From a virus, in the IMG/VR virus record IMGVR_UViG_3300025137_000214, positions 1 through 27,573 of that record: DNA of 27,573 nt. One strand, given 5' to 3'. The stretch's first letter is position 1; the number at the start of each line of letters is the position of its first letter. This document shows positions 2 through 27,573 of the stretch, one piece after another. The position numbers were made by a program, and so were the translations under genes. The notes under the pieces were generated by a model. It was not told the DNA's origin, did no database searches, and saw only the letters and a program-made list of their open reading frames with translations.

Positions 2-3000
2 GGTAGAAGAGATGGTACAGCTAATTTAATATCATTAAGAGCAAGAGATGCTTCCGCGCCAACAGTAGCTTTACCTGATGGTCAAGGTGGTTTAATAAGA
101 TGGCAAGGTTTTGATGGAACTGATTTCGCACAAATGGGTGCTATAGCTGTAGTGGCAGATGGTCAAGCTGTAGCTAATTCTGACGCACCTAGTAAAATGA
201 TATTTTATACAACCGCTGATGGTGGCGAAGCTTTAACAACAGCACTTACATTAGATAAATCTCAAAACGCAACTTTTGCAGGGAATATTTTAATGGGTAA
301 TACTGTTGTAAATCCAGCATCAGGCTTTGCAGATCAAACAGGTATAGGATTAAAAAATTCAACAACAGTTCCAGAGATACAAATATCGTCAGATTCTACT
401 GCAATGCAATTAGGAAGAACTACTACAGGTAGTGATGGTCAAATAATGGCAATGAGGTATGGTTCAAATACAATACATTCATTTAACACAAATTCATTTA
501 GTGTTGGCACAGGCGCAACTTTTGCAGGTATTGTAGGTATAGGTAGTACAGGTGTTTATGCGGGTACTGCTGCTCAGTTAAATTTACCAGGTATAGGGTT
601 AGCTATTAAAAATGACAAGGACGGTAGTAGTAACAACTGGAGTTATATAAATAACACAGCTACAGGAAGCGCATCTAATATAAATTTTCACACTGGCAAC
701 AATACGGCTGCTTTAACTTTGGCTCACAGTGGTTACGCGACTTTTACAGCGGATGTAGAAATACATAAATCTGGTAACGATACAACTGGTAAATTAACAA
801 TAGCTGGAAATAATAACACAGGTACACCAGGTCAAAAAACAAGTAGTACTATTGAGCATAGAGGTGAACATTTAAAAACTGTTATTACGCATAATGGTAG
901 TGATGTTATAACTATAGGCACAGGAACACTCACAGAATTCGCAGGTGAAGTATTAGTTAATGGAAATTTAGAAACCGTAGGAACGAGCTATCTGTATTTA
1001 AGTGGGCACATGAGAATAAATAATCCTGGTAGTGGGGCTTTTAACCTTGATCAATATGATGGTACTAATTGGAATGATACATTAAATATAACTAACGCAG
1101 GAGCAGCAACTTTTCTAAGTGATGTAACCGCAGTTAATGTAATACCTACTTCAGCCTTAAGAATCGGTGCTGCTGATAAATGGAAAATAAGAGGTAATAA
1201 CTCTAACGATAATTTAGCTTTTGAATATGCTGCTTCTGAAACTCTAGCTGATACTAATATAAAATTAGAATTAACTTCAACAGCCGCAACTGTTAAAAAC
1301 AGCTTATCAATACAATCAGATGATGATAATAGATTTTTAGTTAGATCAAATGATTATACTATATCTAGAATTATTTCAAGAGGACTTACTGGCACAAACT
1401 TAGACAAAGGTTTGTTCTCATTAATGACTTCAGACGGTAGTACCAACAATGTTGAAGCAGTTCGTATAGATTCCGCTGGTAACTCTTGGTTTAACGGTGG
1501 GCAAGTTGGTATTGGAGTCGGTACTCCAACTGAATTGCTGCATATTAAGAACCCAAGTAATTCCTGGAATCAATACGCTAGAATTAGAATAGGCACAGAA
1601 ACTACTGATAACTTTGCTTCTGAAATAGGTTTTCATAGAGGAACGACCGACAACACGGATAGAGGATTTTTTATTGATGGTGGTGGTAGTGGTACTCAGC
1701 ATTTAAAAGTTTTATACACCGGAAACGTCGGAATCGGGACTGTTTCTCCTGGGGCTAAGTTAGAGGTAGCAGGTGGAGCGGATTCTATTGCTAGGGTATT
1801 AGGAACAACTACAGCTGCAAGATTAGATTTACAGACTAATTCATATCATAAATTTATACAAACAATAGAGTCTGATGGTCGTTTTAGACTATATAACCAA
1901 ACAACTTCAAAAGAACAACTAACAGTTTCAAATATTGGTGATGTAGGTATAGGTGATGCACTTCCAACAAGTATATCAGCAAATACCTATAATCTATCTG
2001 TTAATTCAGCAAGAACTGATTTATCAGGAGCGCTTATAACTAAAGCTAATAGCTCCATAAAACATCAGCAATACTGGGATTCAAGTGGATATGGTTTTAA
2101 CCTATCAGCTAATTCAGGAGATTTTAAATGGAAGGTTAATAACAGCGATAGAATGGTTGTTGAAAAAGACGGTGGTCTTGATATACAAGGTACCGCGGGT
2201 CAACTTTTCTCAGTTACAAATAGTTTGTCGGGTGATTTATTCTCAGTATCAGATATTTCAGGTATTCCAATATTTAATGTAAACTCTAGTGGTTTATCAA
2301 ACTTTGACGGTAGTGTTGATGTAAGCGGAAATTTACTTGTAGGAAAAACCGCAGTAAATAATGCATTAAAAGGTGTTCAACTAATGACTGACGGAAGTAT
2401 AAATCCAACTGTTAGTGGTGACACTGTAGCTAGGTTTAATAGACTAAGTAATGACGGTGAAGTTATAAGAATACAAAAAGACACAGCTCTTGTTGGGGCT
2501 ATCGGAACCTACAATGGTGTGCCTTGGATAGGTTACCAAGGTGGAGCTGGTGGTGGAATTATGTTCAACGGGGTTAACATTGAACCAACGTTGATAGGAT
2601 CATCAAGATCTAGTAACACTAATGATATAGGTTCGGTAAATTACAAGTGGAGGTATGGTTATTTCGGCACTGGTTTAAATACGCATAATCTTATCGCTAC
2701 AAACTCAACGGTATTAAGTGGTCCACAAAGTGGAACATCAAATGTTTTAACAGTAAACCATGGAGCAGGATCTCACACAGGGATAGGGATAAAAATATCT
2801 TCAGCAAATAGTGGTCATGCTCTTGATTTAAGCGGAAGTGTAGGTAGTGGTTACGCAAGAATAACAACAGCTTATAATAATCTTCCTGATTTTACAATAT
2901 CAGGTACAATCACTGCTGGTGAAGATGTAATAGCTTACTCAGATATAAAGCTAAAAGAAAATATAAAAACATTAGATGGTTCTAAAGTTTACGACATGCG

Positions 3001-3202
3001 TGGTGTTAGTTTTACAAGAAAAGGTACAGAAAAAAAAGGTAGCGGTGTAATAGCTCAAGAGATGCAGAAAGTAGCACCTGAATTAGTTAATGAAATAGAT
3101 GGCACACTAGGTGTATCTTATGGTAACATAACAGGTTATTTAATCGAAGCAATAAAAGATTTAAAAGCTGAAATAGAAGAACTTAAAAAACAAATTAAGT
3201 AA
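2..3202 (+). CDS. Tail fibre with C-terminal S74 self-cleaving chaperone (5' partial)
   Basis: The frame is open from base 2, so the N terminus lies upstream; 1,066 residues are visible. The body is Gly/Ser/Thr/Asn-rich and lacks long hydrophobic segments, as expected for a trimeric beta-helical fibre. ATF motifs (ATFAGN, ATFAGI, ATFTAD, ATFLSD) begin at bases 269, 515, 737 and 1106. VGIG motifs (GQVGIG, GNVGIG, GDVGIG) begin at 1499, 1721 and 1937, only 74 and 72 codons apart. The last ~90 residues match the peptidase S74 intramolecular chaperone of endosialidase and T5-type fibres: SDIKLKENI begins at S980 (visible numbering), then GVIAQEMQKVAPELV, then a terminal coiled coil (LIEAIKDLKAEIEEL). 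In this family the chaperone drives trimerisation and is cut off just before that serine. The stop shares one base with the next start (TAATG). Role as host-recognition fibre is inferred; the S74 call is firm. Confidence 0.88.
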   Translation, partial: GRRDGTANLISLRARDASAPTVALPDGQGGLIRWQGFDGTDFAQMGAIAVVADGQAVANSDAPSKMIFYTTADGGEALTTALTLDKSQNATFAGNILMGNTVVNPASGFADQTGIGLKNSTTVPEIQISSDSTAMQLGRTTTGSDGQIMAMRYGSNTIHSFNTNSFSVGTGATFAGIVGIGSTGVYAGTAAQLNLPGIGLAIKNDKDGSSNNWSYINNTATGSASNINFHTGNNTAALTLAHSGYATFTADVEIHKSGNDTTGKLTIAGNNNTGTPGQKTSSTIEHRGEHLKTVITHNGSDVITIGTGTLTEFAGEVLVNGNLETVGTSYLYLSGHMRINNPGSGAFNLDQYDGTNWNDTLNITNAGAATFLSDVTAVNVIPTSALRIGAADKWKIRGNNSNDNLAFEYAASETLADTNIKLELTSTAATVKNSLSIQSDDDNRFLVRSNDYTISRIISRGLTGTNLDKGLFSLMTSDGSTNNVEAVRIDSAGNSWFNGGQVGIGVGTPTELLHIKNPSNSWNQYARIRIGTETTDNFASEIGFHRGTTDNTDRGFFIDGGGSGTQHLKVLYTGNVGIGTVSPGAKLEVAGGADSIARVLGTTTAARLDLQTNSYHKFIQTIESDGRFRLYNQTTSKEQLTVSNIGDVGIGDALPTSISANTYNLSVNSARTDLSGALITKANSSIKHQQYWDSSGYGFNLSANSGDFKWKVNNSDRMVVEKDGGLDIQGTAGQLFSVTNSLSGDLFSVSDISGIPIFNVNSSGLSNFDGSVDVSGNLLVGKTAVNNALKGVQLMTDGSINPTVSGDTVARFNRLSNDGEVIRIQKDTALVGAIGTYNGVPWIGYQGGAGGGIMFNGVNIEPTLIGSSRSSNTNDIGSVNYKWRYGYFGTGLNTHNLIATNSTVLSGPQSGTSNVLTVNHGAGSHTGIGIKISSANSGHALDLSGSVGSGYARITTAYNNLPDFTISGTITAGEDVIAYSDIKLKENIKTLDGSKVYDMRGVSFTRKGTEKKGSGVIAQEMQKVAPELVNEIDGTLGVSYGNITGYLIEAIKDLKAEIEELKKQIK

Positions 3203-22891: not shown

Positions 22892-23560
22892 ATGGATCCA
22901 TCAATGGTAATTGGAGGCGTTAAAGCCTTAACTAGTATAGCCGGAGGAATTATCGGAAGCGGTAAAAGAAAACGAGAACAAAGACAGGCTCAAGCTGGTT
23001 ACGATAAAACGTTGGCTAGATTAGAGAACATGGACACATCTAATCCTTATGCTAACCAACAGAATGTCTACGAAGACTTAACTGTTAATACGCAGCAAGC
23101 TGATATGTTAGCTGGTCAACAGCAGCAATCATTAGCTAACACAATGGGAAATTTACAAGGTGCTGCCGGTGGATCTGGCATAGCTGCTTTGGCTCAATCA
23201 ATGGCTAATCAACAATCACAAAACCTACAACAAGCTACAGCTAGTATAGGACAACAAGAGCAGTCAAACCAAAGACTAGCAATGGGGCAAGAAGCACAAA
23301 TGCAACAAAACATGGTTGAAGGTGACATGATGTCTAGACAAATGGAAGCTAGCAAAACAACAGGTATGTTGGGTAGAGCTGGCCAAAGGTTATCAGCAGC
23401 TAATCAAGCAAGACAACAAGCTACTAACTCTATAATGGGTGGTGTTGGTGAAATGGTTGGTATGGGGTCTACATTTTTAAAAGGTGGTGCTAACCACGGT
23501 CTTGCGCAAAAAGGCGCAGGCCCTGGTGAAGTAGCTACATTGCCAAATCAATCGACATAA
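22892..23560 (+). CDS. Internal virion (ejection) protein, T7 gp14-like in type
   Basis: 222 residues. A short hydrophobic Gly-rich segment (VIGGVKALTSIAGGIIGSG, ~6-24) is followed by a basic stretch (KRKREQRQ), then Gln/Met/Ala-rich helices (NPYANQQNVYEDLTVNTQQA, then NLQGAAGGSGIAALAQSMAN) and a second Gly-rich hydrophobic part (IMGGVGEMVGMGSTFLKGG, ~180-198). Gln-rich helices with membrane-seeking ends are typical of small ejected proteins of podoviruses, which line the conduit across the outer membrane. It begins a run of three genes rising in size (222, 420, over 912 residues) as in T7 gp14-gp15-gp16. Family is recognised by composition and context, not by a diagnostic active site. Confidence 0.65.
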   Translation: MDPSMVIGGVKALTSIAGGIIGSGKRKREQRQAQAGYDKTLARLENMDTSNPYANQQNVYEDLTVNTQQADMLAGQQQQSLANTMGNLQGAAGGSGIAALAQSMANQQSQNLQQATASIGQQEQSNQRLAMGQEAQMQQNMVEGDMMSRQMEASKTTGMLGRAGQRLSAANQARQQATNSIMGGVGEMVGMGSTFLKGGANHGLAQKGAGPGEVATLPNQST

Positions 23561-23572
23561 ATTAAAATATAT

Positions 23573-24835
23573 ATGGAACTACCAGATTACTCAGGAAGTA
23601 AAGTTGTTAACGTCACAAATGCTGATGCTTTAAATAACTCTAAACTACAAGAAAAGCACTTTCAAGAGCAAATGAATGCTATTTTAGCTAGAAAAAGAGA
23701 AGAACAGATCAAGAAAGCTAGGTCTAATGCTAAGGTGGAGAAATACCTTAACACTATGCCCGATGGTATTGATACTTCTAAGCTTCCAGCAAAGTATCAA
23801 CCAGGTGTTCAAGACTGGGCTAAGAGTAAGCAATTAGAATTTGCTGAGCTAGCTCAACAAGCAGCCAACTATGAGAGTAATGGTGATTTTACTAATAGCA
23901 TAGCTATAAAAAGTAGAATGACTGAGATTGAAAACTCTTTTAAAAACGTAGACAGTCAACTAACTCAATTTAAATCTTACAAAGATAATTTCTTAGAAGA
24001 CAGCCAAAACGGTATGGTTAGCAACTCTGTTAATCCTTACAAGAGAGATCTACTATCTTCTGTATATACTGATGAGTTAGATATGACTTTTTCAGATGAC
24101 GGCAATATAACTTTTTTAAACGAAGAAGGTGGTTACATTAACTTTAACGAAATACCTGATTACACTGTTAAAAACAACAAAGGTGCTAGCGAGATACTAA
24201 ACATGAACGAAGCTATTTATAAGAGTGGAGTAATGAGTCCTAGCTCAGAAAGGTTATATAGAATGAAACTTCAAAATATAACTAAGTCTAGAGATGATGT
24301 TTTGTCATTAGCTACTGATGATTTTATAACAGAAGGTGGTTTAGGTATATTAGACGATGATTTACTCTATAATGAAGAAAGAACTGATGAGCTTAGAGAT
24401 ATGGTTATAGATTCTTACATGGGTATGTTTAAAGAAACCGCAGCGACTAGTATTAAAGAAAAGGCTAACAAAACAAGAACAAAAACTAGAAGCGGTAGCG
24501 CAACTGAAAGAAAATACGGAACAGTATTAAACAATATGTTTAAAGGTTTAAGTAATTTTGCAAATGGTGACGGAGGTTCTTTAACCGCTTACTCTAAAGG
24601 TCAATTTTTAGATAACGAAGACGGTACTGGTGATCTTATATATAGCGACGAAGTTATATTTTTAGATAAAGAATTAAATGAAAACACTATTTATAGAATA
24701 TTAAAAAAAGAAGGCGTACCAGATAACATGATACCTTCTTTAGAAGAAATTAGAGCAATGATAAATGGTGGTAGTAGTGAAGAACAAGCTACAGAACCAT
24801 CAGCAGCAGATTTAATAGCTAAATACTCGAATTAA
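23573..24835 (+). CDS. Internal virion protein, helical (second ejection protein candidate)
   Basis: 420 residues. The first ~130 residues are helical and charged (LQEKHFQEQMNAILARKREE, QLEFAELAQQAANYESNGDF). A middle region with short strands follows (LDMTFSDDGNITFLNEEGGY). The C-terminal part is helical, with a basic low-complexity linker (KEKANKTRTKTRSGSATERK, ~300-319) and a final segment (EQATEPSAADLIAKYSN). No hydrophobic helix or catalytic motif. It starts 12 bases after the previous gene and ends two bases before the large protein gene, so all three are likely translated together. By position it parallels T7 gp15, though about half its size. Homology to gp15 is not claimed. Confidence 0.6.
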   Translation: MELPDYSGSKVVNVTNADALNNSKLQEKHFQEQMNAILARKREEQIKKARSNAKVEKYLNTMPDGIDTSKLPAKYQPGVQDWAKSKQLEFAELAQQAANYESNGDFTNSIAIKSRMTEIENSFKNVDSQLTQFKSYKDNFLEDSQNGMVSNSVNPYKRDLLSSVYTDELDMTFSDDGNITFLNEEGGYINFNEIPDYTVKNNKGASEILNMNEAIYKSGVMSPSSERLYRMKLQNITKSRDDVLSLATDDFITEGGLGILDDDLLYNEERTDELRDMVIDSYMGMFKETAATSIKEKANKTRTKTRSGSATERKYGTVLNNMFKGLSNFANGDGGSLTAYSKGQFLDNEDGTGDLIYSDEVIFLDKELNENTIYRILKKEGVPDNMIPSLEEIRAMINGGSSEEQATEPSAADLIAKYSN

Positions 24836-24837
24836 AT

Positions 24838-27573
24838 ATGGAAGAATTAGAATTGATCGTCCAAAGAATGATGGACGCTGGTGAGTCAGAGGAAAACATT
24901 AAAGCAGTAGTGCAGGAGTTTTCTGCGGGAAAGCAAACAGACCCTGTAAATGTAGAGGCGAATACGGGGTCAGAAAAAGATATGGCTTCAAAATCGGAAG
25001 ATGGTTCGTCGGATTCACAAGAGGATAAACCTAGTAATTGGAAAGTAGCTGGGGAAGCTTTTAAAGGACTTGCTAATACAGCAGTAGAGATTGTTTTTGA
25101 CAATACTAAAGACATAGAGCAATGGGCTATGACACAGAGCGCTAGTATTATTGAAATGATAAAAGCTAAAAGCTTTAGTTTAACACCAGAACAAAGAAAA
25201 AAAGCAGTTGACAACGCAGCTTGGTTTCAAAAAACTAAAGATGAAATAGTTAATTACAACACTCATACAAGGTTTATAGCTGATCAATTAATGCCAGGTG
25301 GCGGAGGTTTTTTATTTAACACGTCTAGAGAAGCAATAGACGAAACACAGAAAAAATTAATACAAAACCAAACTGAATTTAGCAATACAATAACAGAAGA
25401 AATACTAAGTGAAGATACTGATTATGGTGAAGTTGCTGCTAGAATATTTAGAGACGGTCTAACTAGTGCTCCTTTTACTATAATGTCAATGAACCCTTAC
25501 ACCGCTGGTTTTATGGGTGTTGGTTTAGCTGGTGATAAATTTGTCGAAGAGGTTAATCGCGCTGAAAACAAAGACGGTATAGATCAAGCTCTGTGGAGAT
25601 TAAATGGAGCTGCTGCTACAACTGGTACTATTGAAATGTTAGACGCTTTGATAACAAGAAGGTTGTTAGCCGCTAAAGGCTTGTTACCAGGTGGTAGCAA
25701 AGTTGCTTCTGAAGCTGTTAAGCAAATGGAAAAAGGTATAGGCCGTAAGGTTTTAGATGTTTTAGGTATAGGTTTAAAAGAAGGTAGTACAGAGATAGGT
25801 CAAAGCATACTTAACAAATTTAGTGACTCATTATGGTTAGATAGAGGTGTTTTAAGCGATGAAGCAAATCCTGATGGCGTAATGAAAACAATATACCAAA
25901 CTATAGATGAAGGTATAATAGGTGCTTTTAGTGGTGGTGGTGTTACGGCTGTTGCGACAGCAGCTCAATCAGATACTGCTATAAAAGATAGAGTAGAATA
26001 CGTGTTAATGCCTAAAAGTGTTAGAGAGCAAAAAAATAAGCTAACAGAAGAGTTTATAGCTCAATCAGAAAAAGCTAAAAAACTAACCGAAGCAGGTAAT
26101 AAAAAAGGTGCAAAAGCTATAGAGAAAACAAACAAGAAGATTTTATCTCAAATATTAGAGATACAGAATAAAAATAAAATGATTCTTGATAATCTAAGTG
26201 GTAAAGACCTACAAGATTATGCTAAAAACATTGATGCAATAAACGCTTTGAATAAAAACAAAGACATACAAGGTGTTGGATCAGACATATCTGCTCTAGA
26301 AAATATTAACAACGAAATATTTGATAGAGTTTTAAAGCAGAACTACGGAGAAAATGTTAGTTTTACAGAAATAGCTTCTAAGCAGTTAGGTTTAGACACT
26401 GTTGTGGCAAAATCAAATGCTGAATTCGAAAGATTAATAAAAGGTTTAGACGGTAAAAACGTCAACGGTGCATTTATAGGTAACGGTAAAATAATAATAA
26501 ACCAAAGAGTAGCTTTAAAACAAGGCGCGGTTGGAGTTGGTAGTCACGAGGTTTTACACCCAATATTAAACGCTATGGTTGGTGATGCAAAATCCCAAAA
26601 AGTTTTAGTAAATAAATTTAAGAAAACACTAAATAGTAAGCAGTTAAATTGGGTTGAAGGTGAGCTAAAAGCTCAAGGCAAGAAAATTGGTACTCAGGAA
26701 TACTTTACCGAGTACTTTAATGTTTTCTCTGAAGGATTAGTTAAAAACAGAATAAACTTTGATGAAGGTGTTTTTACTAAAGTAAAAAACTATCTAACTA
26801 AATTATATCAAGGTAAAGGTTTTGATAACATAGACTTTGAAAGTGGTAGAGGTGCTTATAACTTTATGAAAGCCTACGACAAGAGTATAAAGTCTGGAAA
26901 AATAAGTCAGGACATACTAAACGTTGTTGATAAAAACAAGGTAGCAAAAGCTGACGTGTTAGATAAAATACAATTATCTGATACAAAAGAGGTTCAAGAG
27001 GTTAATGACATATACAATAACAATACAGATAAGCAAATTGCAGGTTTTGATATAGCTGACAAATATAGAGGCATGGCTGAAGCTGTGTTTAATAGTTTAA
27101 AAGAAGGTAGTAATTATACGCAGAATCAAAAAGAAGTTTTTGATGGCAAGAAAGAAGACATGCTTGCTATGATGTTGTATGATAAAATACCTAGTCAAAA
27201 AGAAGACTCTAAAGCTAGAAACGTAGTTGGTTTAGTTCAAGATTTTGAATCCAAGAAACAAAAGTATAATAATGTTGCCGCTTATATAAACACTTTTTTC
27301 AAAGAAAGATCTAAAGAGGTATTTAAGTATTTCTCTAAAGATGCTATTAACGAAGGTTTAACTAAGGAGGACGGTACTCTGAAGACCGCTGTTAGTAATA
27401 AAACAAACGAGACATCCGATATAGATCAAGGTAAAAAAGCTAGAAAACTAAGTAGTTTTGACAAGCTAATGAAGGGTGACAAGTCTTTTGTTGACCCTAA
27501 AATAAAAAGCAATATAATAACAAAGCTTACTAAAAACTTAAAAAGAATAGCTTTTAAAGGTAGGTTTAATGCT
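24838..27573 (+). CDS. Large internal virion protein with HExxH metallopeptidase motif (3' partial)
   Basis: The frame opens at ATG 24838, two bases after the previous TAA, and stays open for 912 codons to the last base, so the C terminus lies outside. Residues 1-25 (MEELELIVQRMMDAGESEEN) read like N termini of large phage virion proteins. A Gly/Ala-rich, possibly membrane-active part follows: ~211-234 (APFTIMSMNPYTAGFMGVGL), ~257-280, and ~359-377 (GIIGAFSGGGVTAVATAAQ). Helical, Lys-rich coiled coils span ~390-500. At 567-578, GVGSHEVLHPIL gives HExxH (H570, E571, H574). About 50 residues later QEYFTEYFNVFSE (E621, E625, E633) offers a gluzincin-type third zinc ligand. The order and size match T7 gp16-like ejected proteins, but the visible enzyme motif is a protease instead of a transglycosylase. 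Confidence 0.72.
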   Translation, partial: MEELELIVQRMMDAGESEENIKAVVQEFSAGKQTDPVNVEANTGSEKDMASKSEDGSSDSQEDKPSNWKVAGEAFKGLANTAVEIVFDNTKDIEQWAMTQSASIIEMIKAKSFSLTPEQRKKAVDNAAWFQKTKDEIVNYNTHTRFIADQLMPGGGGFLFNTSREAIDETQKKLIQNQTEFSNTITEEILSEDTDYGEVAARIFRDGLTSAPFTIMSMNPYTAGFMGVGLAGDKFVEEVNRAENKDGIDQALWRLNGAAATTGTIEMLDALITRRLLAAKGLLPGGSKVASEAVKQMEKGIGRKVLDVLGIGLKEGSTEIGQSILNKFSDSLWLDRGVLSDEANPDGVMKTIYQTIDEGIIGAFSGGGVTAVATAAQSDTAIKDRVEYVLMPKSVREQKNKLTEEFIAQSEKAKKLTEAGNKKGAKAIEKTNKKILSQILEIQNKNKMILDNLSGKDLQDYAKNIDAINALNKNKDIQGVGSDISALENINNEIFDRVLKQNYGENVSFTEIASKQLGLDTVVAKSNAEFERLIKGLDGKNVNGAFIGNGKIIINQRVALKQGAVGVGSHEVLHPILNAMVGDAKSQKVLVNKFKKTLNSKQLNWVEGELKAQGKKIGTQEYFTEYFNVFSEGLVKNRINFDEGVFTKVKNYLTKLYQGKGFDNIDFESGRGAYNFMKAYDKSIKSGKISQDILNVVDKNKVAKADVLDKIQLSDTKEVQEVNDIYNNNTDKQIAGFDIADKYRGMAEAVFNSLKEGSNYTQNQKEVFDGKKEDMLAMMLYDKIPSQKEDSKARNVVGLVQDFESKKQKYNNVAAYINTFFKERSKEVFKYFSKDAINEGLTKEDGTLKTAVSNKTNETSDIDQGKKARKLSSFDKLMKGDKSFVDPKIKSNIITKLTKNLKRIAFKGRFNA

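Follow-up and report, generated by a model that had tools for sequence, protein, structure and literature searches.

An apparently intact zincin in a podovirus giant virion protein, with repeated junction motifs at which it may cut its own chain

What does a protease embedded in a giant phage virion protein cut? In a virus record of 27,573 bases (the whole stretch analysed, hereafter the window), the question arises from the last gene, which runs off the contig and encodes an HExxH motif. No domain is commoner in polyvalent proteins than the zincin, according to Iyer et al. (2017) (PMC5512222). Our answer, to which we give about an even chance, is that this podovirus giant protein carries an apparently intact zincin, most likely cutting its own chain at motifs repeated at the junctions between its modules.

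Genomic setting and architecture of the giant protein

The window comes from an ocean virus that infects bacteria, a podovirus with relatives among Flavobacteriia phages. Its TerL is 62% identical to that of the uncultured ctfjg026, 45% to those of Flavobacterium elemo phages, and 38% to those of Cellulophaga phages phi13:2 and phi38:1. From the terminase onward, the genes encode the portal, a scaffold-like protein, the capsid and tail proteins, then a Gln-rich protein of 222 aa, a protein of 420 aa and finally the giant protein. The terminase, portal and virion structural genes lie upstream of the giant gene, which is the last in the late operon and follows two smaller proteins resembling internal virion proteins. 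This order is broadly conserved in the isolates named above, where the giant product is annotated as 'structural protein'; the slot of the 222-aa protein is annotated as 'virion structural protein' in cultured relatives. At the other end of the window, positions 2-3202 encode a large protein that resembles a tail fibre, and we take its C-terminus (SDIKLKENIKTLDG...GVIAQEMQKVAPELV) to be similar to an intramolecular chaperone/peptidase S74 domain. The genes of interest here are:

22892-23560, + strand: 222-aa Gln-rich neighbour, probable internal virion protein
23573-24835, + strand: 420-aa neighbour, probable second ejection/internal virion protein, judging by position and synteny
24838-27573, + strand: giant polyvalent virion gene, of which the 5' part (912 codons) is present before the contig stops

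The gene order, together with the analogous N4 cluster (16.5-kDa protein, 66-kDa protein, vRNAP), suggests that the giant protein is ejected. The arrangement of the 222-aa Gln/Ala-rich protein, the 420-aa protein (22892-24835 together) and then the giant gene parallels that of N4 gp52-gp51-gp50, and they form a candidate ejectosome set. Several contigs carrying the giant-protein phage module (L177, L179, L181, L182, L185-L187) have been binned into Maricaulis, Aliivibrio and Woesearchaeota MAGs; since the relatives point to Bacteroidota hosts, these contigs are probably mis-binned.

Full-length relatives of the giant protein are about 2,000-3,500 aa long, and the window copy is a 912-aa N-terminal part. 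Alignment, coverage profile and modelling divide it as follows:

24838-26277, + strand: variable N-terminal region (residues 1-480), poorly conserved among relatives by coverage profile and alignment
26278-26952, + strand: zincin domain as modelled (residues 481-705)
26545-26559, + strand: HEVLH active-site motif (residues 570-574; H570, E571, H574), invariant in 75/75 distinct homologues
26710-26712, + strand: E625 of TEY on the next helix, the same in 75/75 and predicted to be the third ligand of the zinc
26965-26985, + strand: first inter-module junction, KIQLSDT (residues 710-716), by alignment a degenerate counterpart of the relatives' QFSK/QFSR
26989-27573, + strand: residues 718-912, where by alignment and coverage profile the shuffled middle region begins; the contig stops within it

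The full-length relatives all share just two parts, the zincin and a helical C-terminal module of about 690 aa (C-module); the N-terminus and the middle turn over. The middle of most relatives has a HAD-type motif set (DFDDT, LTARP, ADD), and some carry Zeta_toxin/AAA_33 or ART-PolyVal domains. The zincin of the relatives is therefore embedded in a very large chain with unrelated enzymatic domains, as in polyvalent proteins. In most giant proteins (e.g. L026, L062, L105) the HAD-type phosphatase signature (DFDDT ... LTARP ... FADD) lies directly before the C-module. One HAD-type middle region matches a PHROGs polynucleotide kinase (E 1.3e-4), and the HAD-type module is possibly an injected RNA/DNA end-repair enzyme.

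The C-module is recognisable by the motifs GRxILAFANTPMQYxR and MFFNxRSA (e.g. L026:11493-13652) and is encoded by at least 579 IMG/VR stretches. It belongs to no Pfam or PHROGs family, and its model (mean pLDDT 70) gave no convincing structural match, including with Foldseek against the PDB. A likeness to the T7 ejectosome was considered and rejected, as the match covers 73 residues at Z 4.1, within noise.

The zincin domain and its active site

The window protein has only three histidines in its 912 residues, two of which belong to HExxH, and shuffling its own composition gives 0.0006 expected HExxH motifs. We collected relatives from IMG/VR and compared 75 distinct zincin-domain sequences, whose mean column identity is only 29%. 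Just six columns are invariant: H570, E571, H574, E625, F667 and F676. E625 is the middle residue of TEY (residues 624-626; 26707-26715), in a later helix that reads QEYFTEYFNVFSE. The original prediction of a gluzincin-type HExxH...E in a large virion-operon protein, with its third ligand a glutamate on a later helix, is therefore supported, and the glutamate had been placed correctly. Loss of HExxH in close homologues, which the same prediction had named as evidence against it, was not seen: all 75 keep H570, E571 and H574.

This conservation does not stem from how the homologues were found, and we reject selection bias in the search on two counts. First, 45 of the 80 loci were retrieved via a different peptide pattern, so the conservation of HExxH is not a selection effect. 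Second, HExxH is present in 69/69 full-length proteins of an independent set retrieved solely by the C-module (70 motifs vs 0.66 expected), compared with 0-3 occurrences of control motifs such as HDxxH, HQxxH and HKxxH. The zincin domain is hence obligate in these proteins, not a product of chance.

Neither Pfam nor PHROGs returned a zincin family for the window protein or the full-length relatives. Below the curated Pfam cut-off, the ATLF/lethal-factor family PF07737 matched 3 of the 75 members (best E 0.003) and Thermolysin M4 PF01447 reached a best E of 0.011, neither matching the window protein. A tblastn search of an annotated phage collection gave no relative of the window protein, a PDB sequence search gave no matches, and a hydropathy scan of the window protein gave no membrane segment. 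The lack of a Pfam or PHROGs zincin family for the window protein could be taken to mean that the protein is no enzyme and has its HExxH by chance. Against this stand the expectation of 0.0006, the four invariant residues, the predicted fold and the obligate occurrence; the conservation among homologues refutes a chance match, to which we assign next to no probability.

An AlphaFold2 model of residues 481-705 built from the 75 sequences (mean pLDDT 91.2, pTM 0.86) runs from an N-terminal helix through a four-stranded sheet to the HExxH helix and a later helix bearing E625 (model helix 140-155). It has the core elements of the polyvalent zincin-like MPTase, namely an N-terminal helix, at least three strands and two C-terminal helices. 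The model gives a zincin-like layout with high confidence, placing HExxH on one and E625 on the other of the expected pair of helices, as the prediction from the sequence had anticipated. This speaks in part against the other refuting condition named with that prediction, a fold in which H570, E571 and H574 stay apart.

Foldseek found no match to the model at E<1 in the PDB. VIA structural neighbours include zincins and their relatives, all with low Z values: lethal factor/Certhrax (5.5), PPEP-2 (4.7), Zmp1 (3.9), PprI (3.7) and ArdC (3.3). The likeness to anthrax lethal factor and the PPEP family (Z 4.7-5.5) is weak and at the level of fold only; those are secreted bacterial proteins with no significant sequence relation to this domain. 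Predicted viral proteins match more clearly than solved structures, as for the elemoC structural protein (probability 1.00) and the polyvalent protein of Escherichia phage PTXU04 (probability 0.99). Taken together, these results mark HEVLH as the most likely active site of a gluzincin-type metallopeptidase that appears intact and is predicted to be active.

A repeated junction motif in the middle region

The middle of the relatives holds a repeated peptide, [IV]-[QKM]-[FY]-S-[KR]-[ST], with copies often 350-450 aa apart. [QK][FY]S[KR] was observed 114 times in the middle vs 8.9 expected, and 9 times in the N-terminal region vs 5.1 expected. The density of [QKM][FY]S[KR] is 1.24 per 1000 aa in the middle and 0.106 in neighbouring ORFs, a difference of about 12-fold; these ORFs of the same phages are near background, with 20 motifs vs 14.0 expected in 188,000 aa. 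At least four copies of [FY]S[KR] are present in 31 of 106 non-redundant proteins (about 1 expected), while copy numbers are modest in many relatives (none in 5/106, one in 16/106). The motif is not in excess in two giant proteins of cultured relatives that have no zincin, phi38:1 gp101 and phi13:2 gp127. Several distant zincin-bearing relatives also lack the motif (elemoE gp18, ctfjg026, Gundel_1 gp74 and several MAG contigs). Among the MAG-bin loci, the motif pattern recurs in three independent cases (L178, L182, L191) and is absent from more distant ones.

We also investigated how the motif is placed relative to module boundaries. Pooling sites adjacent to the C-module is confounded by the start of that module, so the test was limited to interior motif sites, away from both the zincin and the C-module. 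Homology blocks start and end at these sites 3-4 times as often as at random positions. Distinct alignment starts within the first 10 residues of the motif number 324, vs 93 per bin at random, and control motifs have no common peak of starts and ends. A boundary of any kind lies within 10 aa of 163 sites vs 119 at random (random maximum 139); the count of interior sites with both a start and an end within 15 aa is not significant (31 vs 26.8).

The window holds one copy of the motif, in degenerate form (IQLSD); any more junctions would lie past the contig end. This first post-zincin junction reads KIQLSDTKEVQEV in the window, GQFSRTEDVQEI in L022 and L026, and QFSKT in others. KIQLSDT is our proposed self-cleavage site in the window protein.

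Copies of the motif within one protein tend to be of the same type. The residue before F/Y is concordant in 60/201 within-protein pairs, vs 25.6 expected and at most 44 in 2000 shuffles, a permutation statistic inflated by shared ancestry, as some motif copies are homologous between proteins. The concordance persists in stricter non-redundant sets down to 15 proteins and is weaker in a set of 11 (p 0.05). The type also follows the zincin: the zincin tree needs 4 changes between Q, K and M, the C-module tree 8, and shuffled types about 14. The partial correlation of motif type is 0.28 with zincin identity and 0.14 with C-module identity, where the Mantel statistics share the same inflation and the association with the zincin may be raised by linkage, since zincin and motif adjoin in the gene.

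The position of the motif at module boundaries is also what would be expected of a by-product of domain shuffling, in which the repeat supplies homology for recombination and has nothing to do with the protease. We regard this as very improbable. Both AGY and TCN codons encode the motif serine, in background proportions, and the motif occurs in 43 different nucleotide versions, which argues for selection on the peptide rather than the DNA; motif type follows zincin type besides. An origin of the motif through repeats or recombination at the DNA level was rejected on this codon use.

Self-cutting, its rivals and known systems

The repeated motifs between the parts suggest that the protease cuts the giant protein into separate tools. 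In the mechanism we propose, the zincin would work in cis, cutting its own giant chain at the junction motifs between shuffled cargo modules. The cuts would free enzymes (HAD phosphatase, zeta-type kinase, ADP-ribosyltransferase and others) and the helical C-module, either during assembly or after ejection. The motif as cleavage site, the zincin as its enzyme and the timing of the cuts are all steps we infer. Processing of virion proteins had been the last of the alternatives offered in the original prediction; the strongest evidence now favours it in the form of processing of the giant protein itself. This evidence comprises a motif that is confined to the giant protein, lies at module boundaries, is consistent within proteins, tracks the zincin tree and is selected at the peptide level, together with an invariant active site, a predicted zincin-like fold and the obligate presence of the zincin with the C-module.

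In its fullest form, a self-processing polyprotein of a tailed phage, one zincin per giant virion protein would excise fast-shuffling cargo at a [IV][QKM][FY]S[KR] linker, and the specificity of the protease would co-evolve with its sites, as in RNA-virus polyproteins. We put this forward tentatively, judging it somewhat less probable than not. Counting against self-cutting are the degenerate window copy, the modest motif numbers and the motif-less distant relatives that bear a zincin. So does the delivery, uncut, of the N4 vRNAP and of plasmid polyvalent proteins with similar domains, as described by Iyer et al. (PMC5512222).

The N4 vRNAP also provides the model for a domain that is structural, may bind zinc and serves packaging, folding or regulation with no cutting of protein. 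It is packaged uncut despite an HExxH in its C1 domain beside the large helical C2 (PMC12633501; PMC5512222), and the giant protein here, with its zincin and helical C-module, is built along similar lines. However, all 75 homologues keep E571, the catalytic base, which a domain that only bound zinc could do without, and N4 gp50 lacks a repeated junction motif (three scattered [FY]S[KR]). A purely structural role thus seems rather unlikely to us. The two giant virion proteins share an HExxH domain, a large helical C-terminal region (C1 zincin and C2 in gp50; PMC12633501) and a similar slot beside two smaller structural proteins, but profile comparison gives no link between them. Pfam scans of the middle regions of 28 relatives contained no RNAP family; divergent RNAPs can escape such scans, and the window copy is truncated.

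A further alternative is that the active zincin is an injected effector cutting host proteins (a defence protein, RNAP or envelope protein), with the motif just a linker or docking peptide. An effector role has been suggested for polyvalent zincins (PMC5512222), and the middle modules here resemble host-directed enzymes (zeta/kinase, ART-PolyVal, HAD). Effectors, however, are expected to turn over or be lost, yet the zincin is kept in 69/69 proteins while the cargo turns over; no host target is indicated, and the motif follows zincin type. We therefore consider an effector unlikely. The cleavage of peptidoglycan or of a host defence protein, as originally suggested, is not disproved but has no sequence support, the part of the protein present containing no peptidoglycan-cutting domain. 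This includes the lytic transglycosylase domain of the T7 gp16 type, which is absent from the 912 aa, the rest of the gene lying beyond the contig.

Self-cutting by a polyvalent zincin has precedent. Zincins in phage polyvalent proteins are already known, and Iyer et al. (2017) proposed that they cleave the chains in which they sit, giving P1 DdrB as a case of processing, while listing the N4 vRNAP and two plasmid proteins as delivered whole (PMC5512222). Their polyvalent MPTase domains share with ours HExxH, a glutamate on a downstream helix, very large multidomain virion-linked proteins, fusion to ART and kinase-like domains and, as a proposal, autoproteolytic processing (PMC5512222); the zincin here differs in being captured by no Pfam model. 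As to which of the 12 published MPTase clades it might belong to, single-sequence comparison gave a probability of 0.6% with N4 and of 92% with elemoE gp18. The searched passages of PMC5512222 describe no recurrent junction or cleavage motif for polyvalent zincins. The zincin itself is of a known sort; for the repeated junction motif associated with it, our searches, which covered open-licence papers, found no earlier description.

If the motif is the substrate, the zincin target question becomes directly testable, and giant proteins of uncultured phages gain a sequence rule for their module boundaries and released pieces. If self-processing is true, a dsDNA tailed phage would use a polyprotein strategy, its cargo swappable between fixed cut sites.

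Among cultured relatives, elemoE gp18 of a Flavobacterium elemo phage (3,694 aa, 'structural protein') occupies the same genomic slot and its single zincin aligns with ours (hhalign, 92% probability), but it has neither the junction motif nor the C-module. Gundel_1 gp74, a structural protein of a Tenacibaculum phage, is homologous to part of the C-module (E 5e-11) and carries an HExxH (HEFGH), but its zincin sequence differs and it has no motif excess. In two loci, L132 (2243-7672 and 7620-10268) and L003 (7965-11432 and 11423-14860), the giant frame is split into two overlapping ORFs, either through a frameshift introduced in sequencing or because the chain is naturally in two pieces. Finally, the 3,859-aa giant protein of ctfjg026 (L091, MW202828.1, 42-11621) has two HEFGH zincin-like motifs, at residues 1615 and 2500, compared with the usual single motif elsewhere.
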